A stretch of DNA of 64,000 nucleotides from Larus michahellis (taxonomy: Eukaryota > Chordata > Aves > Charadriiformes > Laridae). Every line of letters starts with the position of its first letter. Within the stretch, counting starts at the first letter, position 1. This document shows, in pieces, positions 1,542 through 64,000 of this stretch. The notes beneath the pieces were generated by a model. That model was not told the DNA's origin, did not search any database, and was given only the letters and a program-made list of their open reading frames with translations. The stretch is from NCBI RefSeq assembly GCF_964199755.1, contig NC_133906.1, forward strand, positions 13,427,378 through 13,491,377. The letters run 5' to 3'. Both the position numbers and the translations under genes were made by a program.

Positions 1542-3713
1542 TCACTTCAAACTCTGGTCTTTTACTAATTGCCGGAGGAGTCTGTGTAAATCCTCTTGGA
1601 ACTGATTCAGGGAGGTAGTGTTTCCTGCTGCCACGGGACACGGGGCCTGGGATGGGGAAGAGAAGGCTGTTAGGATGCATCCTGGGGGAGGGATGTGGTG
1701 CTGCAGCCTGGTCCTGGCCGCTGCTGGTGCAGGAGAGGAGGGGGCAAAAGCAAAAATGTGAAGGTGGGTGTGCAGAAAGCCTGAGGGCTGTGCGGCGGCG
1801 AGGGTCGAGCTTTTTCTTACCCTGTAGACTGCGCTTTCCCTTCGGACCAGGCTGAGCAGGTTGAGGTGGATGCCCTCCAGCTGCTTGTGGCAGCTCCGGC
1901 CCTCCAAAGCGACCGTGCTGGCTTTGCATAGCATCTCCATAGCGTCGCCTTGCTGGAAAAGGATGCACGTGGCTTTTTTTTAGAAACCCTTTTGTACAGG
2001 CGTGGCTTCATTAGCAGCAGATTAAAGCAGCGTAAGTAATACATTTCTGTTCTAATGGTCTGGCCCCGGCAAGGAGCGTGGTGCCACCAGCCGCTGGTGC
2101 GATGTCCTGGCAGTTTGGCGCAGCAGCGAGTGTCCGCCTGCTTGGAGCATCCTGCTCCTGGCACAGAGTGGGGACCCTGTGCCCTGCTCCCTGCGGCGAC
2201 CCGCGGGAACGACGCTGGTTTGGGTGGGCAGAGGCTCAACGGGAATAACAAAAGCCCCTGGGAAGAGGTTGCCTCCATCAGGTGCTTAGAGTAGATAAAG
2301 CCCCGAAGCAGCGACATGCGGAAGGTGAGGAGCTATAAGTGATGGCAGTAATAAGAAAATTATTCAGTTGTCTTCCCTGGGGGACATCCCTGCTGGTGCC
2401 TTGCTGCTGCAGGGTGGGCAGGACATTGCAGTGGTCCCAGGGGACCATCAAATAAGCCACTGGCCTGTCCCTGTGAGCATGGACAGGTCGTGCAGCATTC
2501 CAGGTGTCTCTTCTCTCTGCCAGGGCCGGTCCCTGCAGCAGGAGGGGTGTGGGGACCCCCCGAGTGGCGCTCAGCCCCCCGAGGGGTGCTCAGTCCCCCC
2601 GGGAGGCTGCTGTGCCCCTCGGCTGCCACCTGCCCCAGCAGCGTGGGGCGAGGGCATCGGCTTTCTGTGAAAACAGGAACTCCTGCGCCGGGGAGCTTGG
2701 CTTAGGCAGCAATTTTTCAGAGCAGAAATAGGCTTTATTATCTGCTATTAAATCTCCTGCTAACTAAAGAGCTTTCCCCCAGATAAGGGGCTGAAGAGGG
2801 ATAGTGCGTCTAACCAGAGCTCGAGATGCTGCGCGATAGGCGCGTGTGGGTGTCTGTGAGATGGTGACACACCGCTCCAAGGCAAAGGAAGAAGTTCCTC
2901 TCTTCCTTTCTGAAAAGCTTGAAAAACCCTGTACCGCTGCTCAAACACACGCTGCCCAATCCCGCCCGCCCCTCTGGCCTCCCCCTCACCCCCGCGGTGG
3001 CCGGGGGCTGCCGGTGCTGCTTCGGCTGGAGGTGGCGATGGGTGCGGGAGGGTGCAGGCACCGATGCTGGGCACCGGGAGCAGCGAGGACCAGCCTGGCA
3101 GCCACCAGCATCCCTGCTCGGGGCTCGCCATGGGCTCCTTGCTCCCCTGCAGTGCCGCACCGGGACGGGCAGGACTCCCACGCCTGCCGCCAGGCTCTCC
3201 TCCAGCCCCCGCATCCTCTCCCAATACCCATCCTGGCGCAGCATTGTTTCCCAACAAGGACGAGTTAGTTTTTTCTCCCTTACCTTATCGCCTGCAAAAA
3301 TATTTGTCACGTTCATCTTGTCACAGGAAACCTTTATCGAGACACAAAGGAGAGGAGCGATCAGAAAGCGCTAACGCGGGTCCATCCTGACACACACACG
3401 CAGACACACACCCCCTGTCCCTCTGTCTGTCCATCCACCTGCCCTTGGTCCCCCGGGTGCTCCGCTGCCCCCCTGCGCGCTCAGCACCTTTCTTTCAGCA
3501 TCGCTCTCGCCGAGCCCAGTGAAACCCTCTCTCCCTCCCATCAGCGGGTGAAGGCTGCGGCGCGGGGACCAGCCCTACCTTGGTGTCCAGGAGCTCGCCC
3601 AGCAGCCGGATGCTCTCCTTCAGGAGCGTGGAGGTGGGGAGCAGGGCCGCCATGTGGCCCTGGCAGGCTGACAGCACCAGGAAGGTGAGCAGGACCGGGA
3701 CCGGGATGCTCAT
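1542..3713 (-). CDS. IL4: Interleukin-4, four exons, complete
   Basis: Secreted four-helix cytokine of Th2 cells that signals through IL4R-alpha. Coding exons on the minus strand are 3579-3713 (45 codons), 3284-3331 (16), 1821-1952 (44) and 1542-1646 (34 plus TGA), all phase 0 with GT-AG introns. The total is 139 aa. The exon 2 size of 48 nt matches mammalian IL4. Exon 1 starts with a hydrophobic signal peptide (MSIPVPVLLTFLVLSACQG). Exon 2 carries VSCDKMNVT, exon 3 MLCKAST and SCHKQLEG, and exon 4 APCPVAAGNTT, all close to chicken IL-4 as I recall it. There are four mature cysteines (48, 70, 82, 108) and N-glycosylation sequons at Asn52 and Asn114. The N-terminal mature cysteine I recall in chicken IL-4 is missing. 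Its strand and its place beside IL13 and RAD50 fit the Th2 cluster. Identification is strong; the exact exon 3 acceptor (ttttccag) was chosen for frame and tract quality. Confidence 0.93.
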
Positions 3714-3985: not shown

Positions 3986-6278
3986 GACAGGTCACATACG
4001 AAAGAAAGTATGTAAACTGCCCGGTCTGGGGATTCTTCATTTCTCCGTATCCCAAGACTTTCTCTGTGCTGTGAGGTGAAAGTGGCGCCCCTGAATCCGG
4101 CCACGCTCAAACAACGGAGCTTTGCTTTTTTTTTTTCCTCCTCTAACTGTCCTGCAAGCTCTTCCATCTTGCGTTTCATTTGAATATCTCCAAATCATGC
4201 AAAGCATCCTTCATCTGCATACTATTTTCTATCTATGCTTATCTTAACCTGTGCCGGGGAGAAACAGAAAGCACGGCAGAGCCCTGCCTGGGGCCCGTGG
4301 GGACAAAACCCTCCCGGACGGGAGCGGGGCATCACCACCTCCCGGGGCCAGGGGGTTTTGGAGAGCTGGGGGCCCTCCTGGCCAAACGGGACCCCCGAAA
4401 AGTGTCCTTGCCCATGGCACCCTGCAGTGATGTGGGTGAGGGACAGGGAGCTGGTGGCCCTGCGGCGTTGGTGCTGGGAGTGTGGGGAAAATGGGGTTTT
4501 GTGACTCTGCTTCGGCACCCGGCGTCTCGGGGAGCTGGTGGCTCAGTGACGGGCTCAGCGATGGGCTTAGTGATGACGGGCTCAGCGATGGGCTCGATGA
4601 CAGGCTCAGTGATGGGCTTAGTGATGGTGGGCTCAGTGATGGGCTTAGAGATGGGCTTGATGATGGGCTCAGCGATGATGGGCTCTGCTGGCACCACCGA
4701 CCAGCGCTGCCGCAGGAAATCACGCTGAGAAATCCGCTGAGCTGGGAAACTTCGGAGTTTTGTAATAACTAATAGGTATTTTTCTAACTCAAATAGCAAC
4801 TTGCCATCAGATGCTTGATAAGAGTTTGCGAGTGCTCGATTAATCCAGGAGCAGCCAGACTGAGAGTAATTTTGTTTGTCTGATTACGAAATGCCCCAGA
4901 TGAAGTTAGTGCCACTGACTCAGAAAGACCTTTGCGAGGGATTTGCCAGTGGAGCGCTGCGCCGTTTCCTACCTGCACCGTGTGCGATGGAGAGTAGATA
5001 AGCCCCGGCTGCGGGACTGCGCCGCCGCGGTGGCCTCTGCCGATGGTGGCCATGGGGCCGGGCTCCTCGACGGGATTCCCGGAGCGCCCCCCTGGGTCTG
5101 GGACGGATGGTGGTGGGAGGCTCCCTGCCTAAAAGTGATGCAGGAGAAGGGGATGGAGGTGGTGGTGCCATCCCGCAGCCCCAGTGGTTTCCCCAGTGAT
5201 CAGGGTGGAGTAAATGAACAGAAAACGCTATATTAACAGAAAAATGTAACCTTTGAGCTACCGGGGCTGAATCATGGTGGAAAACTGCATCACTGTGTGA
5301 TGGGAAAGTCACCAGTGAAGGAAAAAATTCCCATGTTCTTTCCCGAGGGTGGGATGTGGCTGATGGTGGTGACGGCCCCATCGCTCGCCAGAGGGATGGC
5401 CCCAGCACGGTCCCAACTCTGCCCGTGCGGGGCGAGAGGGTCGTTTCTAGAGCCCCGGCAGTGCCTTCGTCCCGGCCATCCTTCAGGGGATGCACCTGCT
5501 GCCGTTTTCCCTGCCGAAGGAAGGGGCTTGGTTCAGAAACACGTCCTCAGTTTTTCTCCACTGCCCTTCTGCCCCTCGCGCTCTGGGGTTTGAAGTGTCT
5601 CCCCATCGCACGAGGATCCAGCCTGGGCTCCCAGCACTGGTGTCCCCGCAGCCACCGAGCCAAGGGCTCTGCTGAAAGCCACAGCCACCGGATCGGCTTT
5701 CCCCCTTTTTTCCTTGGCCCAAGCTGGAGTGATTCCAGGACAGATGCTGAGAAAGAGCCACGAGGTTTTGCCTGGGCGTCACGCGCTGCTCAGGGGACAT
5801 TTTGGCTGGTGGCGGCAGGGATGTGCTGCACTTCTCATGCATTTCTGTTGCCTGCCATATCTGGAGCTGGTGTGAATAATGCTGGGGTTTATCCAGAGCA
5901 AATCCAAAGGCTGCAGTTAACGCCCCCATCACATGCATTTATAGCAATTTCCTGCATTTATAACAATGTCCTGCATTTCTAGCGATTCCCAACAGACGGG
6001 TTGCCCATTTATTTCCTACCCGTGTACCTGCCACTGCTGGCACCCAAGCAGGTGCCCGTCCCATGAGCCAGCCCTGTCCCTTCCCTCTCCCATGGGCAAA
6101 GTGTTCCTTGCCCCGCTGGCGCTGCTTTGCCGCCCGCTGGGTGCCATTTCAGCCCTGCCGCCCCCCACCCCAGACCATGGTCTGTGCCCCGACACACCCC
6201 CCCCCCTCCATCAAGACCCTCTTCCCAAGCGCCGACTCCCATCCCCGCTCCTCCAGCCCTTCCCTTCACCCCGTGTTT
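3986..6278. other. IL4 upstream intergenic DNA
   Basis: Lies between the IL4 promoter and a CR1 element. It holds a minisatellite (4540-4690), a perfect AP-1 heptamer TGACTCA at 4916-4922 and a GATA motif AGATAAG at 4996-5002. This is the position of the IL4-IL13 intergenic enhancer (CNS-1) in mammals, but I cannot align it. No coding exon was recognised. Confidence 0.4.
4540..4690. repeat. Minisatellite with 12-nt core unit
   Basis: Imperfect tandem repeat of a unit near GATGGGCTCAGT / GATGGGCTTAGT, with some 15- and 18-nt variants. All frames through it are open in places and give low-complexity Met/Gly/Ser/Leu peptides, which are artefacts of the repeat. Confidence 0.85.
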
Positions 6279-7380
6279 CATAGAATCATGGAATGTGTTG
6301 GGTTGGAAGGGACCTTTAAAGGTCATCTAGTCCAACCCCCCTGCAGTCAGCAGGGGCATCTTTAACTAGATCAGGTTGCTCAGAGCCTCATCAAGCCTGG
6401 CCTTGAATGTCTCCAGGGATGGGGCCTCCACCACCTCTCTGGGAAACCTGTGCCAGTGTCTCACCACCCTCATTGTAAAGAACTTCTTCCTAATGTCTAA
6501 AGATTATCTAAACCTGCCCTGCTCTAGTTTAAAGCCATTGGCCCTCGTCCTATCGCTATATGCCCTTGCAAACAGCCCCTCCCCAGCTTTCTTGTAGGCC
6601 CCCTTCAGGTATTGGAAGGCTGCTATAAGGTCTCCCTGGAGCCTTCTCTTCTCCAGGCTGAACAACCCCAACTCTCTCAGCCTGTCCTCACAGCAGAGGG
6701 GCTCCAGCCCTTTGATCACCTTTGTGGCCTCCTCTGGACCCGCTCCAACAGGTCCATGTCCTTCTTGTGCTGAGGGTTCCTCAGCTGGACACGGTACTGC
6801 AGGTGGGGTCTCACCAGAGCAGAGTAGAGGGGGAGAATCACCTCTCTGGATCTTCTGGCCACCGTTCTTTTGATGCAGCCCAGGATGCGATTGGCCTTCT
6901 GGGCTGCAAGTGCACATTGTTGGCTCATGTCCAGCTTTTCATCCATCAGTACCCCCAAGTCCTTTTCCGCAGGGCTGCTCTCTATCACATCCTCCCCCAG
7001 CCTGTATTGATGACGAGGGTTGTCCCGGCCCAAGTGTAGGACCTCGCACTTGGCCTTGTTGAACTTCATAAGATTTGCTCGGGCCAACCACTCTAGCTCG
7101 TCCAGGTCGCTCTGGATGAACTCCCGTCCCTCTGGCACATCGACAGCACCACTCAGCTTAGTGTCGTCAGCAGACTTGCTGAGGGCGCACTTGATGCCAC
7201 TGTCTAAATCATTGATGAAGATGTTGAACAGCACCAGTCCCAGTACGGATCCCTGAGGGACACCGCTTGTCACCCCTCTCCATCTGGACATCGAGCCATT
7301 GACCACCACCCTCTGGATGCGACCGTCCAGCCACTGGCGTAGGAGTTTCCCTGAGCCACAAGCCAGGTATGTTCCTTGGT
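6279..7380 (-). mobile_element. CR1 LINE fragment with reverse transcriptase C-terminal part
   Basis: The plus strand begins with the reverse complement of the CR1 3' end (TCATAGAATCATGG, then GGTTGGAAGGGACC), so the element is antisense to the plus strand. Reading the minus strand gives a CR1 reverse-transcriptase segment with [20 protein letters not shown] and the catalytic region as SADDTKL, where the first residue is usually Phe or Tyr. The frame then continues to [18 protein letters not shown]. The 5' end is truncated near 7360-7380. It lies just past the probable IL13 poly(A) site. The element is partial and inactive. Confidence 0.9.
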
Positions 7381-7597
7381 GCCTTTTGCTTGCTTGGAAT
7401 ATTGCTCTTTGATGGAAGCCTGGGTAGATTTGCTGGGTATTGCCCCAAGAAATTCCATCCTTCCCCATCCCCTTGCCCCCGCCGTGCCGACTGACCGAGG
7501 AGCCAGCACCCTCCGATGCTCTTCATTGACTGCTGAAGGTAAGACAAGGGGAATCAACAGCATAAACCATTCGTACCAAGAGCTCATTATTCAGTAG

Positions 7598-9051: not shown

Positions 9052-10744
9052 TCACTGAGCAGCTGACGTGGCCAGGCGCCTGTACATCCCCTGGGTGAAA
9101 TTCCCCAGCTCCGGCAAGAAGTTGCGCAGGTAGATCTCGTTTTCGTTGCTCAGGGAGCAGTTCTGGGGAAGGAAAGGCATGAATACATTAGAGCTGACAG
9201 CAGGATTTGGCAGCTCAGACAGCAGGTAGCCAGGCTACCAGCCCAAGCAGATGGTTTGTTGCCATTGCCTGTGTCTCCCATATAAATATTCTGTAATAAC
9301 TGAGTTAAGATTTGGGAGGTCGCTGCCCCAGGAGGTTGGGAATTTGTCCTTTGCTCAGGAAAAGCACCTGGCCCCGGTGCCCAGCGGTGTGACCCCCCCA
9401 GGGCCACTGGTCGGGGGTGGCGGGGGCTGGTGGGGACATCCAGCCTCTTCCCATGAGGCAGGTTGTCCTGCAGGGCTGTACTGCCCAGGTCTGGCCCCAC
9501 GCATGGTCACAAACCCCGGCTGGGTCCATCCCCAGGGTCCATCTGGGGAGCTGGGAGCGGAGCGGGGCTGATGTGGGGCAAAGCCAGCACAGGGGGAGCC
9601 GGGGGGGGGCTGCAGCTCCTGCTTACCATCTTGCCGTGCAGGCTCTGCAGGTTGACGATGAACGGCTCGTAGTCTTTCTTGCATCTGGTGACTTTGGTGA
9701 GCGCCGTGGCAGCCTGGCACAGCAGCTCCTGCTCCGACAGCTGGGAGACACGGTGGGGGAAAAACTTCATTACAACCAAGTAGTTGATTTAAGCTGATGT
9801 CACTTATCAAAGTGTCCAAGGCTGGTGGGAGATTCCGCAGCGACTCCCTAAACTGCTTTCATTTTACGGCTGCGATGGCAGCCCCGGTGCGGTGACTGGG
9901 ACCCTGGGCTCGGGGGGGCCGGGGCGGGCAGAGGCACCGGAGGCATCAAGCTCCGTGCTCGCCCCAGCCACTGGCACTCGAGCAGCTCTTGCTGGGTGAC
10001 TAATGAAACCACCCCTGCTACGTGGGCTGTGCACCGCGGCCAGGAGGGCGCCGGCTGTGTCTGTGTTTATAACAAATGCGTTTTCCATCTATCTCTCCGC
10101 CATCTTTTACCTTTCGATCCGTGAAGGCGACCTGTGCCACTCGGGTGTCATTGCAGGGGACCTGGAGAGGCAACACAAGGTAGAGCTGTCATTATGAGAC
10201 ATTCATTACGAGATCGCTATTATGAGACCATCGTTATGAGGCTGTCCCTGAGGAGCCGCCGGCTGCACCCTCCCCTGGGAAGGAGGACCATGTCCCCATC
10301 CCTCTCTATGGGTACATCGCATGGATGTACCCCAGCTGATGCCACCGCCAAGACCTGCCTTTCAGCAAATTTTTTCAAAACAGGCTCCTGGGAAGACAGG
10401 CCCTGGGTTTGTACAGCCCTCGCAAGCAGTTTGGGGAGCGCAGGAGGGTCCCTGGGTGCTCAGGGGGTGCCATGGACCAGCACAGAGCAGGGACCCCCTG
10501 GCAGCTGACACAGTGCCGGGCCACCATGTCCCCATCACCGAGCTGCCCCAGTCACCCTGACACAGCTCTGCCTGTTGGACAGGGAGGTTGTCTTGTTTCT
10601 CAGCATGTTTTTCTGCAATGTGCCCAATGTTGGGTGGAAAAGTTCACCCTGCCCGACCCCAGCAGCCACTTGTACCACCAACTCCAGTGCTGAGCACACA
10701 AAGTGTAGGTTGAAATGGGCTGGGGTGCCCAAAGCAGCAAGGAA

Positions 10745-10788
<44 letters not shown>

Positions 10789-10985
10789 CTAACGTTCCTT
10801 TGGTCTGTAAGCAAACGCACGCCAGGAGGTGTAGTGGCATTTACCTGCACTCCTGAGTTGAGCCGTTGGATGCGGTGGGTGATCTCTGACAGCTTTAGCT
10901 TGGGAGAGGTAGTCATTGGTGGTCTGGAAGAAACAAGCTGGAGCAGGGAGAGGAGAGCGAAAGCAGCCTTCAGCGAGGGGAGCAT
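9052..10985 (-). CDS. IL13: Interleukin-13, four exons, complete
   Basis: Secreted four-helix Th2 cytokine, sister of IL-4, acting through IL13R-alpha1/IL4R-alpha. Coding exons on the minus strand are 10845-10985 (47 codons), 10111-10161 (17), 9627-9740 (38) and 9052-9162 (36 plus TGA), all phase 0 with GT-AG borders. The total is 138 aa. Exon 1 begins with a signal peptide (MLPSLKAAFALLSLLQLVSS), then KLKLSEITHRIQRLN. Exon 2 reads VPCNDTRVAQVAFTDRK. Exon 3 has LSEQELLCQAATAL and CKKDYEPFIVNL. Exon 4 has YLRNFLPELGNFTQ. Four mature cysteines (50, 72, 84, 104) can form the two disulfides of the family, and sequons lie at Asn51, Asn103 and Asn123. The match to chicken IL-13 as I recall it is close. 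It sits between IL4 and RAD50 on the same strand, as expected. Confidence 0.94.
10745..10786. repeat. (CAT)14 microsatellite in IL13 intron 1
   Basis: Fourteen perfect CAT triplets on the plus strand, about 58 nt inside intron 1 from the exon 1 donor. It is a likely length polymorphism. Confidence 0.95.
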
Positions 10986-20212: not shown

Positions 20213-41910
<21,698 letters not shown>

Positions 41911-45137: not shown

Positions 45138-46430
45138 CATGGAATCCTGGAATGGTTTGGGTTGGAAGGGAACTTAGAGATCACCAGTGCCACCCCCTGC
45201 CCTGGGCAGGGACACCTCCCACCACACCAGGTTGCTCCAAGCCCCGTCCAGCCTGGCATTGAACACCTCCAGGGATGGGGCAGCCACAGCTTCTCTGGGC
45301 AACCTGGGCCAGGGGCTCACCACCCTCACAGCAAAGAATTTCTTCCTGAGATCTCATCTAAATCTCCCCTCTTTTCGTTTAAAACCGTTCCCCCTCATCC
45401 CATGGCTCCCCTTCCTGATCCAGAGTCCCTCCCCAGCTCTCCTGGAGCCCCTTGAGGGACTGGAAGGGGCTCCGAGGTCTCCCCGGAGCCTTCTCTTCTC
45501 CAGGCTGAACCCCCCCAGCTCTCTCAGCCTGTCCTCACAGCAGAGGGGCTCCAGCCCTCCCAGCATCTCCGGGGCCTCCTCTGGCCCCGCTCCAACAGCT
45601 CCGTGTCCTTCTGCTGTTGGTGCCCCAGAGCTGGAGGCAGCACTGCAGGGGGGTCTCCCCAGAGCGGAGCAGAGGGGCAGAATCCCCTCCTCGCCCTGCT
45701 GCCCACTCTGCTGGGGATGCAGCCCAGGCTGTGGGGGGTTTCTGGGCTGCCAGCGCATGTTGCTGGCTCATGTTGAGCTTCTCATCCACCAACACCGCCA
45801 AGTCCTTCTCCTCAGGGTTGCTCTCCAGCCATTCTCCACCCAGCCTGGATTTGCGCTGGGGGTTGCCCTGACCCACGTGCAGGATCTTGTCCTTGTCCTG
45901 GTTGAACTTCATGAGGTTCACACAGGCCACATCTCCAGCCTGTCCAGGTTCCTCTGGATGGCATCCCTTCTCTCCAGCATGTCAAGTGCTCCATATAGCT
46001 TGGTGTCATCAGCAAACTTGCTGAGGTTCACTTGATCCCGATGTCACTGGCAAAGGTGTTAAACAGCACCGGTTCCAGTACTGATCCCTGAGGAATGTCG
46101 CTCGTCGCTGGTCTGCACTCGGACATCGAGCCATTAATCGTAACTCTTTGGGTGCGACCATCCAGCCAATACCTTACCCACCCAGTGGCCATCCATCAAA
46201 TCCATGTCTCTCCAATTTAGAGATGACGATGTTGTGTGGGTCAGTGTCAAATGCCTTGCACAAGTCCAGGTAGATGATGTCAGTTGCTCTTCCTTTATTG
46301 ACCAACACCGTAACCCCATCGTAGAAGGCCACCAAATTTATCAGACACAATTTGCCTTTAGTGAAGCTGTGTCAGCTGTCACCAATCACCTCCTTATTTT
46401 CTATGTGCCTTAGCAACCTGTTTTATACAC
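45138..46430 (-). mobile_element. CR1 LINE fragment, about 1.3 kb
   Basis: Antisense on the plus strand, starting at the CR1 3' end (TCATGGAATCCTGGAATGG). On the minus strand it decodes to broken reverse-transcriptase pieces: [14 protein letters not shown] sequence, HVGQGNPQRKSRLGGEW, LAVLVDEKLNMSQQHALAAQ and LLERGQRRPRRCWEG. Frames are interrupted by frameshifts, so it is inactive. It is the longest CR1 in the window. Confidence 0.9.
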
Positions 46431-51564: not shown

Positions 51565-51750
51565 GACATCTCTTATCTACAAAGGTATTTTCCCCTTATT
51601 TGATGTCAGAGGGAAGGAAACCCCCAACCTGTCCCCACTGAGGCATCCCACAATGCCTATAATAATTCACACTCCGTTCTTGTGCTTTTCCAATATGAGA
51701 AAACTTTCCCTTTGATTTAATATTCAAGGTGTACATGGGTATATATAGGC
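51565..51750 (+). promoter_or_regulatory. IL5: IL5 promoter
   Basis: A TATA box (TATATATA, 51740-51747) lies 57 nt before the start codon, giving a 5' UTR of roughly 30 nt. Upstream are GAAAACTTTCCC near 51698 (paired NFAT-type half sites), GTCAGAGGGAAGGAAAC near 51604 and a GATA motif TTATCT near 51574. The close packing resembles mammalian IL5 promoters. Factor use is inferred. Confidence 0.55.
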
Positions 51751-51803: not shown

Positions 51804-54099
51804 ATGCTGTTGCTCTGTCTCTCCTTATTGAGTTGCTGCTTATCTGGCTCAATGGGCAGCGCAATAAAAGAATTTCAAGTAAACTTCAAGGCTTTAGTGG
51901 ATCTCACAAGCAAGGAGGTGGGTCATTATCTTTTCTTCTTCGTTTTCTGCAGTTCTTTTGATGGAAGTATAAACTCGAGCCTGGGCTAATTTCAGCTCTA
52001 GTTTGCATGTCCTGTATTTTGTTTGTTAAACTCAAGATGCTGAAGCCACTGCGTGTCAACCTCTCCTCAGAAGCTGGCGCTGCAATTGTTTCCCCAAAGG
52101 AAGTTCAGAAATAGAAAACCTGATGAAGATGATATGTAGTTAGAGATGCTTAACAATGTGGCAGTCACTTACAAGAGAAATACCTTTTAACGCTATTTTC
52201 TTTTTTTTTTTAAATTTTAGATCTTTCTTCCAGTACCTGCCAGGAAATTTCAGGTAAGACTTTTAAAGCTTCTTTATTACTGCTGCTGTTAATCATTTGG
52301 AAAATGATGATGCTTTGTAGCAGATCTTGAAGGAAAGAGAGAGTTAGACTACTGAAAAAAAGACCGAGTCTCACAAAAAGGGAAAACACGTGCTAGCGGT
52401 ATGTTCATGAGCAGCCCTATCGAATTCAGTGAAGTTCCTTGTATGCAAAAAATTATGGAAATAAACAACCAATTTTGAGACCAGGGACTCCGAGGCTTGG
52501 TTATACTCCTACTGAAGGCAATCTCAGGAGCTCTCGCAGAGAGTTTAATACCAAGGCTGTTCTCAATATTGCTATAGGAGGTACAGACCCTGAACGTGAC
52601 CCACTGTCATTTAGAGAAGGTGGCAGAGAACACCGTTAGTACTGGAAACTGTTAAATGTTCCTACCTCTTGGCAAACAGACAGGTTGAGAGTTATAAAGC
52701 ACAATGGACTTTGTCTCCGAAGGAAGCAATTTGCAGAGATGACAAGTTATCGCACACAGACTTGTTGATCAGTGGTTTTCAGCCTGTGGTCTGCAGATTT
52801 CTCAGGCTCTGTGAACTGAAAAAAGGTTCATGAAAAATAACTAAGAGCAGGCGGCCTGTTGTTGGGAAGCCTTATCTTCAGACGAAAAAAAAAATTAGAG
52901 TTTGCAACTTTAAAAAAGGTGAAGAGCAGCACTTTATAAACAGGGGAGTTCCGTGCTTTTGTCCTTCCGCAGGGAGACGGTAGCCGTGAAAGGCAATTAG
53001 CAAATCTAATCTCCTTGGGCTATGCAGTGTGATTTTGATAAAACTGCAACCCCAATGGATTTTAATCCTCTTTTACAAGCCTTTTCCCTATTTTTCCTTT
53101 TTTAATGATTTTTTTTTGACATTATATACTTTTTCCTCTCCTGATGTAGATTTTTATCAAATCTCAGAAAACGCAGGAAAGCCCCCCCTTTCCCTAATTG
53201 TACAGAAATAGAGTAGAAAATAGGTAATTTCTGTTTCTGCTGTGCATGCAGTTAGTTTTTGAATTTAATGAAAGATAAAAATTAACTAATTTGGCGGAAT
53301 ATAACTTTGTTGTTGTTTGATATATTTTTCTAGTGCAACCTAGTTCCCTGTCACCTTGAAAGAACCGTAAAACGGCTGAAATTTTACTTTAAGAACGATC
53401 AAATGAGAACATACGTTTCTCTGATGGAGAAAAACATGGACCGCATAATATCGACTTTAAATAAAGCACATACAGTAAGTTATTTATACTGGTTAAACAG
53501 ATGGAAATGTGAAATTACTGTGAATAAACTGCTCCTTTGTTTCCAAAACATATGAAATTAAGCAACTTGTCATCCTACAGTCAAACTGAAGTCAATAGCA
53601 AAATTTTGATACCGTCCCCATACACTCTTAATTTTGCACTGTTGAGGATTATGCCTGACACACAAAAATGTCTTTATAAAAAATACCTGAAATTCACAGA
53701 TTCTGGATGGAAGTTGCAGTTTTCTAAAAGGTGCATCACCTTTAGACAAGTCCTGAACTTGTCATTAGCCCAGGAGATTAATAAGAAAAGGCCCAAGGCC
53801 ACATCTCAGTGGGCAAAGTCAGCCAGGATGAAGTGTTCCTGATTCTCAAAAGTCTTCTCTCCAATCATTCGTGTCGAGCTCTCTCTGTCCCCTTCTGATT
53901 AAATATCGCCTTGAACAACCACCAACAACTCCGCAGCAATACGCTTTTTCTTTTTTTATTCTCTCCATTATTATCACTCTTACTGTTGTTATTCTAGACA
54001 TCCAAGAAAGAGGGTTCCTGTCCGATGACAGAGGTGACCCTGCCGAGTGCCCTGGAGCGCTACAAGAGTTTCTTCCAAGAGCTGCACGAGAACTGCTAG
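51804..54099 (+). CDS. IL5: Interleukin-5, four exons, complete
   Basis: Secreted dimeric cytokine acting on eosinophils and B cells through IL5RA/CSF2RB in mammals. Exons are 51804-51917 (38 codons), 52221-52253 (11), 53334-53474 (47) and 53998-54099 (33 plus TAG), all phase 0 with GT-AG introns. The total is 129 aa against 134 in human. The 33-nt exon 2 is the hallmark of IL5, and it encodes IFLPVPARKFQ, aligning with the human LRIPVPVHK segment. Signal peptide: MLLLCLSLLSCCLSGSMGSA. Helix regions include RTVKRLKFYFKND in exon 3 and LERYKSFFQELHENC in exon 4. Mature cysteines are at 50, 55, 104 and 129; one of the first two and Cys104 match the interchain pair of mammalian IL-5. There are no N-glycosylation sequons. 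It is transcribed opposite to RAD50, as in mammals. The start at 51804 is chosen because it opens the signal peptide. Confidence 0.93.
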
Positions 54100-54309
54100 A
54101 AGGGTGCGGAGACCCAGCAAGTCGGAGACGTCTTCTACCCAACACTAGAGCCGGTTCTGATGGGAAACTGCAAAGCTGCCACAGAGCGACAGCATAACAT
54201 GAATGTGTTAGAGTGTATTATCAGATATTTATGTCTTATCGCAGGTATTAATGTATATATTTAATTTATGGAGAGCTTTCGTATTTTTTCAGAGTCCTAA
54301 TGTTCAAAG

Positions 54310-54412
54310 AATAAAAGAACTTAAAATTATTATTTCTATTGCGGCTTTTGTGCACTATAATAATTAGTATATATCAAGGCTTGAATAAAGCTATGTGGGT
54401 GAAATTAATAAA
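54310..54412 (+). terminator. IL5: IL5 polyadenylation signals
   Basis: AATAAA occurs at 54310-54315, 54384-54389 and 54407-54412, about 210-310 nt after the stop codon. The 3' UTR before them has ATTTA motifs near 54224 and 54260, as expected for an unstable cytokine mRNA. Confidence 0.6.
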
Positions 54413-57400
54413 ATACTGATCAGAAGGCAGATCCATTACTCTGCTTTCCTGCGGACATTTACAAAATTGTCAGAATCTCTATTTTCTGAAGGCAGGAGAA
54501 AAAAAAAATTTAAAAGGCTGTCTTTTAAATATGGGTATAATTAAGTTTGAAATCAGAGGGTTTTTTTCCTGAAATTCTGCAACATAATTGCAGTGCAGTA
54601 TACCTGCGTGGTATGCATTCTTTGTTTATTTAATGTATTTATTGCGACAGCAGATCCTATTTATTTTAATATTACTCCAAATTTATTTTCAAACCATGTT
54701 TATCTTCAAACTTTGGAGCAAAGAGTGAGGAATTTGTGTTTGTTGGCTCAGTGTCGGGCCAAAATGAGACCCTGAGCTGGTCTCGGGCTATTGCCGTAGA
54801 AACGTCGTAACGACTGTTGTAACAACAGAAACAACAGTGGTAGTAAGGGATGTCTAATTTAGGATGGATTTGTTGGTTCCCCCCCCACTTCAGGATTGCC
54901 TTAACTGACGTTTTCATGAAGTGAAGAATGTATTTGTGAGTTACTTTTCCTAAATAAAGATATTACATTTTTCTAGAATCTGAAGCGTCAGAGGAAAACT
55001 ACACTTTTGCTAACGTTCGGAACTGTACGCTGGTTTCCAGCTGAAACGGGGTGGATCCACCAAGCTCGCTTTTGGGGCATGAGCTACTATGAGGACCTGC
55101 CCAGCTAGGCATTGCCTAAGTTTTAATTCAAAGATACTTACCGTATATGTATTTTTGAGACGCCACAGGCCCTTGCTGATAAAGTAAACCATGCTGAAAA
55201 GTAATTGAACGTAATTATGGCCAAAGAACCACCAGGGTTGTGAAGATCGTGATAGATAGTCAAGGCATGAAAAGTAAAGAAATGACAGGGTGGTGCACTG
55301 AGAGGCGATTCCCACCTTGGTGACAGATTAAAGCCGGGATGAAACCAGACACTATTATTAGCAGGGTGGCAGTGGCTAATCCATTGGGTTGTGAAACTAA
55401 TAAACCATAGTAAAGGGGGAAGGCAAAGGACACTCTCCCAACAAGCCAATATCTGCACCGATAGTCACTGCTGGAGGTTTAGCAAGAGCAGGTAACAGCG
55501 ACACATAGAATTTTGAAAGAACCCAACACCAGAAGGTCCCTCTCCAAACAGCATCTCTCTGAGCCAGCTCCCAAGGAATGGCAGCACATTCTTGGAGATG
55601 CAATAAGCCAGGAAACCTGACCCGTACAGAGTGGGTAATAAGTACCTGAATGACAGCTTTCACGGGTAACTGTAAATGATGCGCAGCTGCTAAAATTGAC
55701 GCAAGACTGGACAGCATCACTTTTTTCTTTTATTTTATGGTTTGTGCCGGCTTTCTGCATAAAGCTGAAAAATAGCAACAAAGTTGGCATTTTTACCGCG
55801 ATTGTTTGCAGGAACTATATAATCTTAAAACAAACAAAAAACCCCTTTCAACCACGCATTGCTAAGTGACTGTAACGTTACTGCAGGGCATGCTGAAACC
55901 ACCCCTTTCCCCTCCAAACCATGCTAAAACACGTTGAAAGCGTCAGCAGCAATGTGATGTACCCATGGGTGGGGAGGATATTGCTCACCCACGCCAAGCT
56001 AAACCTCACGGGGCGAGCACAGACAAATTCTACTGACAGCTTGAAAGACCACACTGGACCTTAATTAACTAATTAAGCAGGGGAGATCTCTAGTTACATC
56101 ATATTTTAATGCAACCTTGTGTAAGCTCAGCCCATACCTACAGGTGTATTCTTTCACTAGTCCTTCGCATTACCTTGTGGTGGGTCCATCCACATAGGGC
56201 AAAGCACAGGCAAATCTGTTTTCTTTCCATTTTGCTCTTCTGGAAGCATTTGACTTCCTGTGCTAGTACAGGTTAACAGAGTTTGGAGCACCTGGAATTC
56301 TCATTTTATGCTATCTGCTCTTTGGGAATACGGGTGTCAGGATTATAAGACAATTGGGAGCATTTTGAAATACCCTGAGTGGGAGAAATGGATTTTTGGT
56401 GTGCTGCCAACACGGTGTATCATCCGTTTGCCAACCGGCCAACCTATGGAAAAGTCATTTGAGAAGAGACAGGAAAGATGTTGTCCCAAACCAGTCACCA
56501 AGGAACATAAATGAGGTTTTCAGGAGCCCGGGGAGGGAAAGGCTGTACAGGCAAGGGCAGAGGGAGTGACGAGCCTGGCTGGGCAACCTCTAAAATTCAG
56601 TCAACATACACAAGGCTGTTCAGCCCTCTGAGTGGAGAGGAAAAGCCTTAAGGCTTTCGTTCTCAAGACGTAGAGGCAAAAAAAGAAAAAAAACCTCAGG
56701 CAGAACCCGCTCTGGGGAAGGTCTCTAGCCCAACGCAGAGGACAGGCTCCTGCAGAGCGTGATGTGTGGTGTTGGAACTGAAACCCCACAATAAAAATCA
56801 GAAAACAAAGAAACAAAAAGCTATAAACAAATATACTGAATTGTCTAGGCGGAAAGAGCTATAATCACGGGTTTCTGAGCTCCTACCAGTTTTTGTTTTC
56901 TGGCTGGGGGAGCCAAAGGCTTTTGGAAAGCAGAAGAGATGTTGAAACTGCCCAGAAGTAATTGCCGGGATGCGAAGAGGTGAGCATCCCACTGCTGCTC
57001 CTCTGCCTCGCCACTTCAGGCAGTTACAGGACAACAGTTTAGGGGTTTTTTTAAACTATTCTGGTTGCCATTCCCGCTGACATTTCCCAGGAGGCTGAAA
57101 AGCTTTCCAGTGCAGCCTGGGCCAGCCAGCGGCCATGCCTTTGCTGCAGGCTGGGGCAGAGAGCGAGCCGCAGACACCTACATTTCCATTAGTTTTGGCT
57201 GAGTCCTGAGCAACAACTGGCTCCTCTGGGTCATCTTCCTTCCCCTGGCTTTCGTCTTCCCTTCCTCTGTAGGAAGCGTCCCATGTTGTGCAATGGCTCA
57301 GTCAAGCTGAGTGTGGGGTGGCATCTGACAGAGTCCCACCGCCGGCAGTGTCCAGAGTGGGATTGGGACCATGCTGCACTCCTCACCTACCTGAGCAGGA

Positions 57401-58476
57401 GCAGCAACAGTGGACAGCAAATGACGGAGTCAAGGCCACCTGGCCAATGTTTTTTCTTTTCTTCCAGGTGTCTTCCACACCACCAAGGAGCCTGGCAAAA
57501 ACAACACAAAACCAGGTGCTTCTTGCTACAGGTCACTTTGTGAAGAACAAGGGAAAATCTGTGAAAATAAAAGGCTTGGTTAGTCCTTGCATTTAAAATC
57601 ATGTATGCTTTTGTGGTGTATTTGGTAATACATACTTAATAAGTTACATACATTAATTAGTACATACTCAATAAACCTTACATACTAAACACTGTAAAAA
57701 CCAGTCAGACCATCGTTCCCAGTGTACCCCTGACCCAGTCCACCTCTGCCTGGTGGGCTCCAGTCTCCCCAAGCAGAGTTAAAACTTTTCTCCCCCCCCA
57801 AAAATTGGTCAGATACTGTGCATATTGTTCCCAGTGAGCAATCACTCCCATGGACCGTTACAGAACTGCAAAAGACATTCCTCTTGACAGCCCCTTTCCT
57901 AAGAAAAGATTTTAGTTCGTGTAATTTAGGTCAAGACCAGTCTTTACAAAACTTCTCAATTTTCCCAGCTTGGGACCAGCCTTTGACCGAGCAGCAGAGC
58001 TGTTTCTGTGGCAGAGATGCTCCAGGCTCCACCTTGTGGAGCGGCACCACTTCGGGATGATCTTCTAGCAAAAAAAAAAAAAAAAAAAAACCTCTGGGGT
58101 TTATCTTTTATCTCCATTGCACGAGGCAGGATTCCTGCTGGCTGCTGGAGCATCCCAGCCTGGCTTTGCCCATGAGTGCATCCCTCGCTTTACCAGCTGC
58201 CGTGACACGGCGTGGGCAGGCTGGAAGGCAGCAAATAGCCACATATTTGTTCCCTAAATCCTGTGAACATGACTCAGGGCCCCCTGCTCATGACCTGCTG
58301 TTTGCACTCACCTGCCTTTTCTCTGTTGCTGCCTGTTAGAGGCGAGAGTGTCACTAGAGATTAAAACAGTCTCTACAACCCCAGGAGATTGTTTGGGGTC
58401 AGAAAACTTGCCAGGATAAGAAAAAACTCCATTTCAGCCAAATTGCTTTAAACTAAGGCCCCAGAATAAAATATTA
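54413..58476. other. Intergenic DNA downstream of IL5
   Basis: No gene recognised. Around 55000-55800 the minus strand has several overlapping open frames of about 100 aa that match nothing I know. An A run of 21 nt lies at 58070-58090. Confidence 0.45.
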
Positions 58477-58768
58477 TCATAGAATCAGAGAATGGTTTGG
58501 GTTGGAAGGGACCTTAAAGCCCACCCAGTGCCACCCCCTGCCCTGGGCAGGGACACCTTGCTCCAAGCCCCGTCCAACCTGGCCTTGAACCCCTCCAGGG
58601 ATGGGGCAGCCACAGCTTCTCTGGGCAACCTGGGCCAGGGGCTCACCACCCTCACAGCAAAGAATTTCTTCCTAATCTCTAACCAAAATCTCCCCTCTTT
58701 TTGTTTAAAACCGTTCCCCCTCATCCTATGGCTCCCCTCCCTGATCAAGGGTCCCTCCCCAGCTCTTG
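58477..58768 (-). mobile_element. CR1 3' fragment, about 290 nt
   Basis: Antisense CR1 3' end (TCATAGAATCAGAGAATGG, then GGTTGGAAGGGACC), nearly the same subfamily as the copies at 16512 and 45138. It is truncated after CTCCCCAGCTCTTG. Confidence 0.9.
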
Positions 58769-61272
58769 AAACATAACCACTGAGAGAACGCATTTCAGAG
58801 GGTTAGTAAAAGCATACTCATACTCTAATAGGAATGACAGCAGGTGGCTGCGAGCCCTCCTGGCCCCACCAAGTCGCCTCCTCGTCTCCAGGCATTGGGC
58901 TGGATGCGACTCAGGGAGGCAAACCCCGCGGTCCCCAGCAGCTCTGCTGTCCCAGGAGCGGGGAGAAGAGCCGGGCAGGAGGGATTCCAGCAAACCACGG
59001 CTGCAGCTTTTTATGCCGTCAACTACAAGGCACTGGCTGCAGCTGAAATCCCTTCGGGGCCACCGAGCATATGCTCAGGTGGCTCCAAATCACATCACAA
59101 CCTCTTCAGAGATGGCCAGGAAGCACTTATCTTTAACAAACGAGAGATAACATTTACTAATGAGGTTAACTGCTGAAATGTAGTTTCCAAGTATGAGATT
59201 ATGTTAGTCAAAAGGTGCCCATTCATTAAGGACGGTTTAAAAAACAAGATATAGTCTCCAAAGCCGCAGTATCTCCTCACACATCTAGCCTGCCCTGCAA
59301 GATAGGGCCTTGCTGTCTTCAAGGGAAAGATGGTCAAAGAAATGAAGTCTGTTCCCTGATTTTTAGAAGTTTCCATTCCCTTGAGCCTGGCAGGCCGGAG
59401 AGGCACAGGTTACTGCACCATATCCATGCTGTGTTACATGCTTGCACCGGTACAAAAACCTTATCTGAGCATCATAACTTCATGCTTATCTAGATGAAGG
59501 AGGAAAACCACCCACTGCAAATGGTTGCAGCTTCCAGCTAACGATGCCAGCAGAAAGCTGTGAAGGTGACAGTAGCACACGATAGCTCACTAGTTCCTGT
59601 GTGCCACCTCAGGTCCACCTCCCCTGGGCACCGCGGTGTTTCAAGCTGCCGTGGTTTCCACGGGGGCTGTGTGGCCCTGCTACAGCCGGGGGGGGTCAAT
59701 CCTGCCCCGGGGGCCAGGCAGCAAGCGCTGGCAGCTCTCACAGCTGCCCAGGCGCTGGTAATGCCCCCAAGCCAGGAGCAGGGTCAGAAAAGCTCACGCT
59801 TAGGCAAGGCCAGCACCGGTCTCGCCCGTTATGGGCTCAGCCAGCGGCCACGGTGCCAGACTGACCCGCTCCATTCATCCGAGCATCCGCCATGTCCCTC
59901 CAGCCCCTCAGCAAGGCGCCTGCCCACAGAATCACCATTTCTGGGTGCAGAGAAGCCCTTACCCCAAGCGATGATCCCAGCTCCGGCATCAGCAGCACCC
60001 TGCACAGCTTTCGAGGTAGCTTTGTCTTCACGTTCATAGTGTCATCTGATTCTTTTTTCAATAATATTCCTGAATCAGCTATAACAGGAACATGGCTTAT
60101 CACACCCTGACTCCCACTGAAATACCTTTTTCATTAGTATCAGAATTCGTGAATTCACTAATTAATCATATTATTTATCCACTTCCATACTCCTGATCAT
60201 TCCAAATTCAAACTGAGTCACTTTGGATTAATCCAACAGTTTGGATTTCCACCTGCTGTCTTTTTCTCCAGCCTCCAGAGTTTCTTCTGAAATATTTTCT
60301 TTTTCCTTTTCTTTTTCCTTTTCTTTTTCCTTTTCTTTTTCCTTTTCTTTTTCCTTTTCTTTTTTCTTTTCTTTTTCTTTTCCTTTTCTTTTCCTTTTTG
60401 CCTTTTCTTTTTCCTTTCCTTTTTCATTTTCCTTTTCTTTTCCTTTTTTCCTTTTCTTTGTCCTTTTCTTCTCTTTTTTTTTTCTTTTTGTTTTTTTTTT
60501 CCTTTTTCCTTTTCTTTTCCTTTTCCTACCAATTCGGTCAGTGTTTGTGGTGCCTTTGCTCTGCCCGTACTCACAGACGAGACAAATTCTAGAGCTATAG
60601 GGATCAAAGGTGTACAGCATCGAGACGGTCGGGACCTGTTGCTTAACGTTGCCCTATTTTGTTCTTAACATCATCGTTCAGCTTCTTAACCCTGCATTCA
60701 CATGTGAAAAAAACCCCAAACCATCCGAACAGTAACAAATTTGAAGCTGGAAGACGCGACTACAGTTTGTGTAGGGACACTGAGCCGGCTGAGAGAGAAA
60801 AACTAGCATTTGAGCAGTTCTCTTAACTCAAGCAGAACAGAAAAAAAAAAAAAAGGAAAAAAACAAGGAAAAAACCCCTCCCTGCATTGCGAAGTCTAAT
60901 GATTTTGGAGTCTGTCACAAGAAGACAGAGTGGTCACACAGTGGTGAAGAACCAATCTTGTTTCCTTTGTGGGCCAGCCAAAGCCCTGCTGAAAGACCAT
61001 CAGCTGCTACTGATACGTGCAACAAAAATACCCTTCAGTTCTTGGGAACTGGGAATTATCTCCCAAACACAAAAAGCCACGAAATTTTCAAAGGGAAAAA
61101 AAAATAAATAATAATCGCAGAGTTCATGCAATGTCCTGGAGCAGTGCCAGGATTTTTGCAGAAGTGGTCGAAAATCCCAAATGCAAGGGAGGCGGGGGGG
61201 GAGGGGGGAAGGAAGGAGAGCTCTGAGACATAAAACCCATCGGCAGCTGTGCCAGGAGAGGAGGTGGGACAG
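58769..61272. other. Intergenic DNA with a long pyrimidine tract
   Basis: No gene recognised. It includes the polypyrimidine repeat annotated separately and A runs near 60840. Confidence 0.5.
60297..60530. repeat. Polypyrimidine (CTTTTC)n-type repeat, about 235 nt
   Basis: Nearly uninterrupted T/C sequence on the plus strand in units of CTTTTTCCTTTT, with no A and almost no G. The minus strand is all purine and gives false Lys/Glu-rich frames. Confidence 0.95.
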
Positions 61273-61275
61273 ATC

Positions 61276-61340
61276 ATAGAATCATAGAATCATAGGGTTG
61301 GAAGGGACCTCTGGAGATCATCTAGTCCAACCCCCAATGT
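61276..61340 (-). mobile_element. Short CR1 3'-end fragment
   Basis: Antisense tail with three copies of the terminal octamer-type repeat (ATCATAGA), then GGTTGGAAGGGACC and CATCTAGTCCAACC. Confidence 0.85.
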
Positions 61341-63000
61341 GCTCTTGGTGACCAGCGGCCGTGGCACGGGGACACCCAAGGTGGGGACACCACGGCAGCG
61401 GCAGGTGGCTCTGTGGGCGATCCCTCACGGAAGTGACAGGAACCGCTGTGATACAGGACGGACCAACCGTCGGCTGAGGAAAAAGTGAAACAGAGAAATT
61501 TCCCATTACCAATCCTGAGGTCCCGCAGGAATTCCAAACCAAGCTGTGCACGGAGGTCTCCAGCGGTGGGGTCAGACCTCACGGGGCTGGTACAGCCCCA
61601 GCGCCAGCCAAAGGGGAGAGGAGGCTTTGCCCGAAAAATCAGTATGAGTTTGTGGGAGACCAAAAGAAACGAGCTGTAAAACACCAAAAACACAGCGGAC
61701 CAAGAATGGGGCTTAATATTTTCTGCTGCGTGACTTACAAATTCAGCCCGAGGGCAACTGTTAGCTCCAGGCAGGTTCTCTGCGGAGCTCCCAGCGGTGC
61801 GCTGGCGCAGAGTCCCCATTCCTGCAAGGATATGACCCTTGGAGTTGTGTGATGGGAAAGCTCTAGAGCTAGGCATGCAACGTGAAAGAAAGCACACTAT
61901 CCCTGTTCGAGACGGCAGAGTGGGTATAGCGAGAGGGCAGCGACCAGCTTGTAGGTTAGCTTGAGTGAAGCCACACGACCGCTGCTGACTTTTGACTTCC
62001 CCAATTCAAAGTATTGAGATGTTGAGGCACTTACACATAACTGCTGCGGCACTGGGCTGGGTGCCACGCAGAACGGGGCCAGCAGATCTGCTCCAGCCCA
62101 GCAGAAGTGGGGCCGGACCTCCTGCTACCGCTGCCGTCGCCGGAACCCGTGGGCAGAAGGCAAACGATAGCACTTTTATGAAAAAGAACACCGTTCTTTT
62201 CGAAAAAGGAATCGAAAAAGGCTTTTTTCCCAGCTTCCAGGAAAGAGGAGGAAACAAGTCACCGAGTTAATTAATTTGGCCAGATAAGAAGTCACAATGC
62301 CTTCAGTGAATGAAGGGCTTGGCCCCAACCCTTGCAAACCCGCGGGGCTCCCCCCCATGCCAGCGCCTGGCTGCGAGCGGGGCAGCGGGGGCACCATCGT
62401 CCCGGCACAAAACCAACTCCCTCCCCCCGCCGCGGAGTCTGGGCTGAGACACTCGGAGCATCCCACATCCCTCCTTCTCCAGCCAAAAGGAGCCGCTTCC
62501 CTCTCCCATCCCCAGGGCCACCCTCCCGTGCCAGGGCAGTGGCTTCTCCTGCTGTAAATTAACGAATTCCTACAGAATACCTGCATTTTGACAAACTTTT
62601 GCCACAGGTAGTGCACAAAGGCTGTCATTTTCCCCTTCTAGGCAGTGCTCCACATATTTTCCGTGGGGTTTTGGTGTTCTTTGTTTTGGTTTTTTTTTCT
62701 CTTACACCACAGTCTTTTTCCCTCATTATCTATCAGAAGATTGCATGCTGTTATCAGAGGAGTTCCGATTTCTAGAGAAGCGCCCTCTGCTTGGTCATGG
62801 TTTTGATCATTCGATGTTTTACTGATTCGAAAATCAAAAGGCCACAACCTTATATCTTTATGACCTACTTCTGTGGAAATGCTGATGGGGTAAGGAGTTT
62901 GCCCCAAGGTTAAGTGCCAAATTTACCGGAACCTTCCTCTTTCAGAAAATCTCAACAAATGGCCTTTTTTCTATCAGTTTAAAAAATCAACCTAAAATGC
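61341..63000. other. Intergenic DNA upstream of the IL5-like gene
   Basis: No coding exon recognised. The last few hundred bases (about 62640-63000) are the presumed upstream regulatory DNA of the IL5-like gene. Confidence 0.45.
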
Positions 63001-63019
63001 TGTTTCCCTGTAGGGAGGC

Positions 63020-63026
63020 CATAAAA
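63020..63026 (+). promoter_or_regulatory. TATA-like box of the IL5-like gene
   Basis: CATAAAA, 60 nt before the start codon. An in-frame ATG at 63026 overlaps it and is therefore probably upstream of transcription start, which supports the start at 63080. Confidence 0.45.
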
Positions 63027-63079
63027 TGACAAAGGACCGGCCCAGAAGCACTTACAGGTTCTCTGAGCGCATCAGGAGG

Positions 63080-63404
63080 ATGAAGACCCATCTCTACCTT
63101 CTTTTGCTGGCTGCAAGCATCTCTGCTGCTCCCCACATGAGCAGCGTGTCTGAACTACTGACGTTATTACAGGAGATGTGGGACTCAACGACAAAGGACA
63201 ATCTGGTAAATTCAATTGCCACATCACTAATCTAGAAATCTGACAAACTGAATCCTCTTGTTCTCAGATATTTAACTTTTCTGAAAGTCAATCTGTTTAT
63301 GTGACATCTTGTTTTTGTTAGCGTTAATGACGATGATATTTGAAAGGCTTAATTGATGTACTGTTTTTCAGGCTCTGAGGATTGAAACTCCAGACAACAT
63401 AGAT
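63080..63404 (+). CDS. IL5-like cytokine, first two exons (KK34 candidate), truncated by window end
   Basis: Exon 1 is 63080-63205 (42 codons) and exon 2 is 63372-63404 (11 codons), both phase 0 with GT donors (gtaaat, gtaagt) and a good acceptor (tgtttttcag). Exon 1 encodes a signal peptide (MKTHLYLLLLAASISAAP) and a helix (VSELLTLLQEMW). The 33-nt exon 2 encodes ALRIETPDNID. A 33-nt second exon is shared with IL5, whereas IL3 and CSF2 have 42-nt second exons in human, so this is an IL5-type gene. It lies 9 kb from IL5 on the same strand, which suggests tandem duplication. Avian KK34, an IL5-like transcript reported from chicken gamma-delta T cells, is the best candidate; IL3 or CSF2 are less likely. 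I found no convincing exon 3 in the remaining 600 nt. Confidence 0.75.
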
Positions 63405-63965: not shown

Positions 63966-64000
63966 CGAAAGGGTTGTCAAGCATTGGAACAGGCTGCCCA
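63966..64000 (+). mobile_element. CR1 fragment cut by the window end
   Basis: AAAGGGTTGTCAAGCATTGG followed by AACAGGCTGCCCA is the plus-sense CR1 3' region. The rest lies outside the window. Confidence 0.7.

Follow-up and report, generated by a model that had tools for sequence, protein, structure and literature searches.

The closest described counterparts of the genes considered here include avian IL-5 and KK34. The cited part of PMC4690019 already lists IL-5 of chicken, sparrow and pigeon, and the title of Avery 2004 names six genes, KK34 among them, and calls chicken IL-5 a pseudogene. Reports on chicken IL-5 expression conflict, with up-regulation in the cited passages of PMC3004833 and none in those of PMC5960781. 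KK34, present in chicken and, by the title of Yamaguchi 2016, in many mammals, belongs to the same cytokine family according to that title, and a passage of PMC8964181 describes it as an IL-5-like transcript. In addition, PMC4690019, in the portion cited, places a mammalian cytokine gene that then had no name immediately downstream of IL-3 and GM-CSF. That gene was predicted in cattle and seems to be a pseudogene in humans, and we infer it to be the one later called KK34. We analyzed a 64,000-nucleotide stretch of the genome of the bird Larus michahellis (NC_133906.1, C15:13427378-13491377; hereafter the window) together with 196 kb of extending sequence, and scanned 258,822 bases on both strands. 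Two genes with the exon layout of IL-5 lie there in tandem in the T helper 2 (Th2) cytokine locus: gene A, next to RAD50, and gene B, distal to it. Judged from their sequences, gene B is the IL-5 of this bird and gene A is most likely a divergent, old member of the IL-3/IL-5/GM-CSF/KK34 family. We consider this account of the IL-5 corner of the avian Th2 locus, with A and B as separate cytokines, the probable one.

A preliminary description of the window had located two such genes on one strand 9 kb apart, each with a signal-peptide exon of about 40 codons and a 33-nucleotide (nt) phase-0 exon 2 carrying LPVP in A and LRI in B. The coordinates were correct and the other statements held: the first exons have 38 and 42 codons, both second exons have the length and motif described, and 8,980 bases separate the stop codon of A from the ATG of B on the plus strand. 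Human IL5 comprises four exons in phase 0 with a 33-nt exon 2, and gene B shows the same layout; like those of A, the borders of its exons in the window are GT-AG. Its third and fourth exons were found, as anticipated, by extension past position 64000, and exon 3 was the sole exon-3 candidate passing in 63405-69500. A scan for a signal-peptide exon followed by a 33-nt phase-0 exon 2 with splice scores returned solely A and B in the 258,822 bases, with thresholds chosen after A and B had been seen; the same scan of Markov controls gave none in 40 single-strand sequences of 40 kb.

The full protein of gene B matched the Pfam family IL5 (32.8 bits, cut-off 24, E 9e-8), and its GM_CSF score of 13.5 bits was under the 20.1 cut-off. 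In the PDB search six IL-5 chains ranked first, 3b5k (taken as mouse from its letters) at E 1.6e-5 and five at E 0.005-0.014; Pfam and PDB searches with the first two exons had found no cytokine. The presumed mature protein, for which the signal-peptide cleavage site was guessed, contains exactly two cysteines, aligned to those of human HQLC and KKC, which we take to be the IL-5 dimer positions C44 and C86. Exon-wise alignment gave z scores of 7.2 with mouse IL5 and 6.2 with human IL5. Furthermore, the chicken IL-5 primer pair (AJ621252; from the cited passages of PMC3004833 and PMC7019883) fitted the complementary DNA (cDNA) of gene B in frame and at exactly the published 111 nt, with 17/23 and 15/23 bases matching, in a test that allowed product lengths of 96-126 and compares 46 bases, not the full length, for orthology. 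Shuffled pairs equaled this fit in 0 of 1000 trials and in 0 of 300 in a second test. Among seven cytokine cDNAs of this bird, B matched 32 of the 46 bases and the other six 23-25. Because the primers fit B at the exact length, we assign it to IL-5 and not to KK34, the name proposed earlier for the distal copy.

Several results weigh against this assignment. Gene B also reached z 6.2 with this bird's own CSF2 and 5.6 with gar IL-5famA. A grouping of exons 3 and 4 with IL3 or CSF2, which had been named beforehand as speaking against an IL-5-type gene, did not appear with the whole protein, which Pfam places in IL5, but for exon 4 alone the score with the CSF2 of this bird (z 8.2) exceeded those with mouse and human IL5 (5.8 and 5.3). 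In the tree, whose comparison included no KK34 sequence, B joined mammalian IL5 at just 65.9/40 (Shimodaira-Hasegawa-like approximate likelihood-ratio test, SH-aLRT/ultrafast bootstrap, UFBoot) and A was left undecided. A Pfam IL5 search of the whole genome gave no match and is uninformative, because 14 control genomes gave none either. Gene B is an intact four-exon gene for an apparently secreted cytokine. The 600 nt past its stop codon contain two ATTTA motifs, and no polyadenylation signal was found in them.

Gene A is likewise an intact gene for an apparently secreted cytokine. The frame is open across four exons with GT-AG borders and six intact splice sites, and the 600 nt past the stop codon contain nine ATTTA motifs, whereas 300 random stretches had 0.88 on average and 7 at most. 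A six-frame genome search, a method that can miss relatives of these cytokines, indicated one copy: three of the five matches were its own exons, and the others had E 0.97 and 9.2. Four cysteines follow the presumed signal peptide, which differs from the two-cysteine dimer pattern of IL-5.

The exon layout and the location of gene A on the IL-5 side agree with the IL-3/IL-5/GM-CSF/KK34 family. The layout favors this family because exon 2 is 33 nt long, carries a proline motif and has no cysteine, whereas the exon 2 of each of the four IL4/IL13 genes compared has 48-51 nt and one cysteine. Averaged over nine IL-5-family proteins, exons 1-4 of gene A gave z 3.8, 2.7, 2.1 and 2.8, all above their own shuffles (p 0.002, 0.004, 0.026 and 0.012). 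Among the genes of this bird, B was closest (z 4.7), followed by CSF2 (2.8), IL13 (1.0) and IL4 (0.9). Taken together, these comparisons make membership of gene A in the IL-5 family likely. An old duplication linking A and B, as proposed in the preliminary description, is possible from their similarity (z 4.5-4.7), but the tree cannot place A. The accompanying idea that each copy kept a different half of the mammalian exon 2 motif LRIPVP is weak: in the register of human TLRIPVPVHKN, with the exon border as we presume it, B shares 4 of 11 residues and A none, and the half retained by gene A, LPVP, lies one codon out of register.

Other observations count against an IL-5-family origin of gene A. 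Its protein gave no significant match in Pfam and PDB, and no cytokine family appeared at E up to 10. The best maximum-likelihood (ML) tree put A with IL4/IL13, the split leaving it outside the IL-5 family having SH-aLRT 94.1 and UFBoot 73. The approximately unbiased (AU) test rejected none of five placements (p 0.13-0.68), namely with IL-4/13 (0.68), the IL-5 family (0.56), the IL5 clade (0.51), B (0.16) and CSF2 (0.13); a sister position to B was excluded by bootstrap proportion alone. Human IL4 was the top single match, at z 5.0 exon-wise and 6.6-7.3 for exon 4, and ranked first in all four settings of whole-protein alignment (z 4.5-5.6). Two of the four single chicken IL-4 primers matched the cDNA of A (8 and 4 of 500 shuffles did as well) in a series of 24 tests, the second of them falling in the 3' untranslated region. 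Gene A could be a displaced gene of the IL-4/IL-13 family on the IL-5 side of RAD50, an alternative favored by the exon 4 similarity, the first rank of human IL4 in whole-protein alignment and the ML grouping. Against four IL-4/13 proteins, however, exons 1-4 gave z 1.8, 0.8, 0.4 and 5.1, so that the signal is clear in exon 4 alone, is absent in exons 2 and 3 and small in exon 1, and stems mainly from human IL4. Gene A does not match this bird's own IL4 or IL13, and its exon 2 lacks the cysteine mentioned above. We thus regard a displaced IL-4/IL-13 gene as unlikely, though the best placed of the alternatives.

The paired, length-bound primer test separated the genes where single primers did not; the single chicken IL5 primers were uninformative on gene A, being equaled by 136 and 450 of 500 shuffles. 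The IL-5 pair fitted A no better than shuffles (24/46 bases, 511/1000 shuffles), the IL-13 pair was equaled by 34/300 shuffles, and the IL-4 pair (26/47 bases, 18/300 shuffles) ranked next after its fit to the IL4 gene. The cDNA of gene A fits the chicken IL4, IL5 and IL13 primer pairs near chance, and none of them clearly.

The position of KK34 also bears on the naming of both genes. Gene K, a gene in the IL3 slot and CSF2 lie in tandem beyond P4HA2 at C15 ~13777-13800 kb, and since all three are on the minus strand in that order, K lies transcriptionally downstream of both its neighbors. In human, CSF2 rather than IL3 is nearer to P4HA2, so that the order of the two relative to P4HA2 is reversed in this bird. 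CSF2 of this bird gave z 9.3 with what we take to be the chicken CSF2 sequence. Gene K gave z 6.7 with the latter and 6.0 with gar IL-5famA, and 11.5 bits with Pfam GM_CSF, under the 20.1 cut-off; because of the z of 6.7, K could be a second CSF2-like gene. A whole-genome search with chicken CSF2 gave three matches with E values of 0.33-5.8, all of them outside C15; as the CSF2 gene is present there, such searches evidently miss these genes. A promoter stretch, TATTAATCATTTCCTC, lying about 90 nt upstream of the start codon, is common to the IL3-slot gene and CSF2, and this stretch was not found in the 120 nt upstream of K. On position and elimination, rather than by comparison with a KK34 sequence, K is the best KK34 candidate, and since CSF2, the IL3-slot gene and K sit together beyond P4HA2, KK34 is probably not part of the A-B tandem. 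Gene A itself might be KK34 and K something else, given that KK34 is one of the six genes in the title of Avery 2004 and that the comparisons with A included no chicken KK34 sequence. In the cited part of PMC4690019, however, the mammalian gene taken as KK34 is directly downstream of IL-3 and GM-CSF, as K is here, and gar IL-5famA, which K resembles, has that mammalian-type gene as its best database match. We consider KK34 a rather improbable identity for A.

The six genes of that title can be matched with IL4, IL13, IL5 (gene B), K, IL3 and CSF2, which would make gene A a seventh. That A is a seventh Th2-locus cytokine between RAD50 and IL-5, apart from IL-3, IL-4, IL-5, IL-13, GM-CSF and KK34, is to us an evenly balanced proposition. 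The same holds for its extension, by which the cytokine would combine a GM-CSF-like four-cysteine chemistry with the slot of mammalian IL-5, perhaps in birds generally. Yamaguchi is said to have given the name IL-5famE, in 2016, to a new gene of birds and reptiles, and gene A is perhaps this gene; a literature search for the name matched IL-5fam only and did not find IL-5famE.

Two further explanations fared worse. Gene A is very divergent, and it might be a non-functional relic like chicken IL-5, a pseudogene in the title of Avery 2004 and without expression in the cited part of PMC5960781; the open frame, six intact splice sites, TATA-like box, AU-rich 3' end and polyadenylation signals of A make this improbable. 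The earlier naming of A as IL-5 and B as KK34, which has in its favor the RAD50-adjacent position of A (on our assumption about the human order, the slot held by IL5 in mammals) and the IL-5-like character attributed to KK34, is very improbable in view of the chicken IL-5 primers, which match B with the exact product length but do not match A, the Pfam IL5 call for B and not A, and the separate KK34 candidate by P4HA2.

The neighborhood agrees with the assignment of the two genes to the IL-5 corner. The order and strands are IL4(-), IL13(-), RAD50(-), A(+), B(+) and IRF1(+), which we take to be those of the human Th2 locus. RAD50 is on the minus strand, so A and B are on its 5' side. The alternative that A is IL13 and B is IL4, prompted by exon 4 of A, was rejected because the orientation of RAD50 is wrong for it and IL4 and IL13 are on the other side of RAD50. 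The chicken IL-13 primer pair picked the IL13-slot gene with a product of exactly 123 nt (33/42 bases, 0/300 shuffles), and the IL-4 pair picked the IL4 gene at 97 nt against the published 100 (27/47 bases, 2/300 shuffles). In Pfam the IL13-slot gene scored 31.0 bits with IL4 (cut-off 23), with no IL13 match listed. A looser exon scan (exon 2 of 27-63 nt, looser splice limits, four exons required) added the IL13-slot gene at 10985 (-) and missed IL4; no further cytokine gene was found by the exon scan between B and IRF1. Several repeats were also observed. A minisatellite of GGCTCAGTGATG-type units is located at 4540-4685 near the IL4 gene, and an array of 39 TTTTCC-type hexamers at 60295-60527 between A and B. 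A reverse transcriptase-like open frame at 6719-7522 (-) (Pfam RVT_1, E 3e-8) probably belongs to what we presume to be a CR1-type element. The translated stretch GAFSSPG*TPP occurs ten times in the extended 258 kb, once at 45485, and is presumably an interspersed repeat.

Table 1. Features of the locus. Plain positions are window or extended window coordinates, to which 13427377 is added to give the C15 position; positions marked C15 are given directly.
Feature	Position	Strand	Details
Gene A, whole	51804-54099	+	four exons, phase 0, 129 residues
Gene A, TATA-like box	51740..51745	+	64 nt upstream of ATG
Gene A, exon 1	51804..51917	+	114 nt, 38 codons; signal peptide and presumed helix A
Gene A, exon 2	52221..52253	+	33 nt, IFLPVPARKFQ
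Gene A, exon 3	53334..53474	+	141 nt, two cysteines
Gene A, exon 4	53998..54099	+	stop TAG; ends ...SCPMTEVTLPSALERYKSFFQELHENC
Gene A, 3' region	54100..54420	+	ATTTA motifs; AATAAA/ATTAAA signals at +210, +284, +307
Gene B, whole	63080-65948 (extended)	+	four exons, phase 0, 128 residues
Gene B, weak TATA-like box	63021..63026	+	ATAAAA, 59 nt upstream of ATG
Gene B, exon 1	63080..63205	+	126 nt, 42 codons
Gene B, exon 2	63372..63404	+	33 nt, ALRIETPDNID
Gene B, exon 3	65481-65615 (extended)	+	acceptor 6.6, donor 3.6
Gene B, exon 4	65856-65948 (extended)	+	past window edge
IRF1	84146-88104 (extended)	+	past genes A and B
RAD50 zinc-hook exon	33044..33286	-	E 1.4e-39; Pfam Rad50_zn_hook
IL13-slot gene	9055..10985	-	exons 10845-10985, 10111-10161, 9627-9740, 9055-9162; chicken IL13 primers
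IL4 gene	1545..3713	-	exons 3579-3713, 3284-3331, 1821-1949, 1545-1646; beyond RAD50
P4HA2	C15:13740216		
Gene K	start C15 ~13779938	-	beyond P4HA2; exon 2 of 30 nt
IL3-slot gene	start C15 ~13787884	-	beyond P4HA2; exon 2 of 24 nt
CSF2	start C15 ~13799594	-	beyond P4HA2

The product of gene B would be a secreted four-helix cytokine forming a homodimer joined through its two cysteines, with IL5RA and the common beta chain as its receptor. Gene A may encode a secreted short-chain helical cytokine, a GM-CSF-like monomer in which the four cysteines would form two internal disulphides, and its product might bind a common-beta-type receptor via a glutamate in helix A. This glutamate does not decide the family of A, because IL4 has one there too. 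Expression of the two genes may be induced jointly in Th2-like cells.

The locus thus has ordinary Th2 anatomy, in which one gene name is corrected and one cytokine is under-described. The names matter because position alone would label gene A, a less familiar relative, as IL5. If A is a working cytokine, it would be another player in bird eosinophil and Th2 biology, and one beside IL-5 that seemingly falls outside the list in the title of Avery 2004. If it is IL-5famE, which would be an extra IL-5-family gene of birds and reptiles, as A is in this bird, the finding as a whole is of a kind already described. Compared with IL-4 and IL-13, gene A resembles human IL4 in exon 4 and differs in exons 2-3, which do not fit, and in its place, the IL4 and IL13 of this bird being across RAD50. 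With respect to KK34, the downstream position of the mammalian gene in the cited part of PMC4690019 is occupied in this bird by K and by neither A nor B. Gene B is like avian IL-5 (chicken AJ621252) in its exon layout, its place between RAD50 and IRF1, its Pfam IL5 match and its fit to the chicken primers. It differs from chicken IL-5 in being intact where the latter is called a pseudogene, a label that bears on whether birds have a working IL-5 biology.

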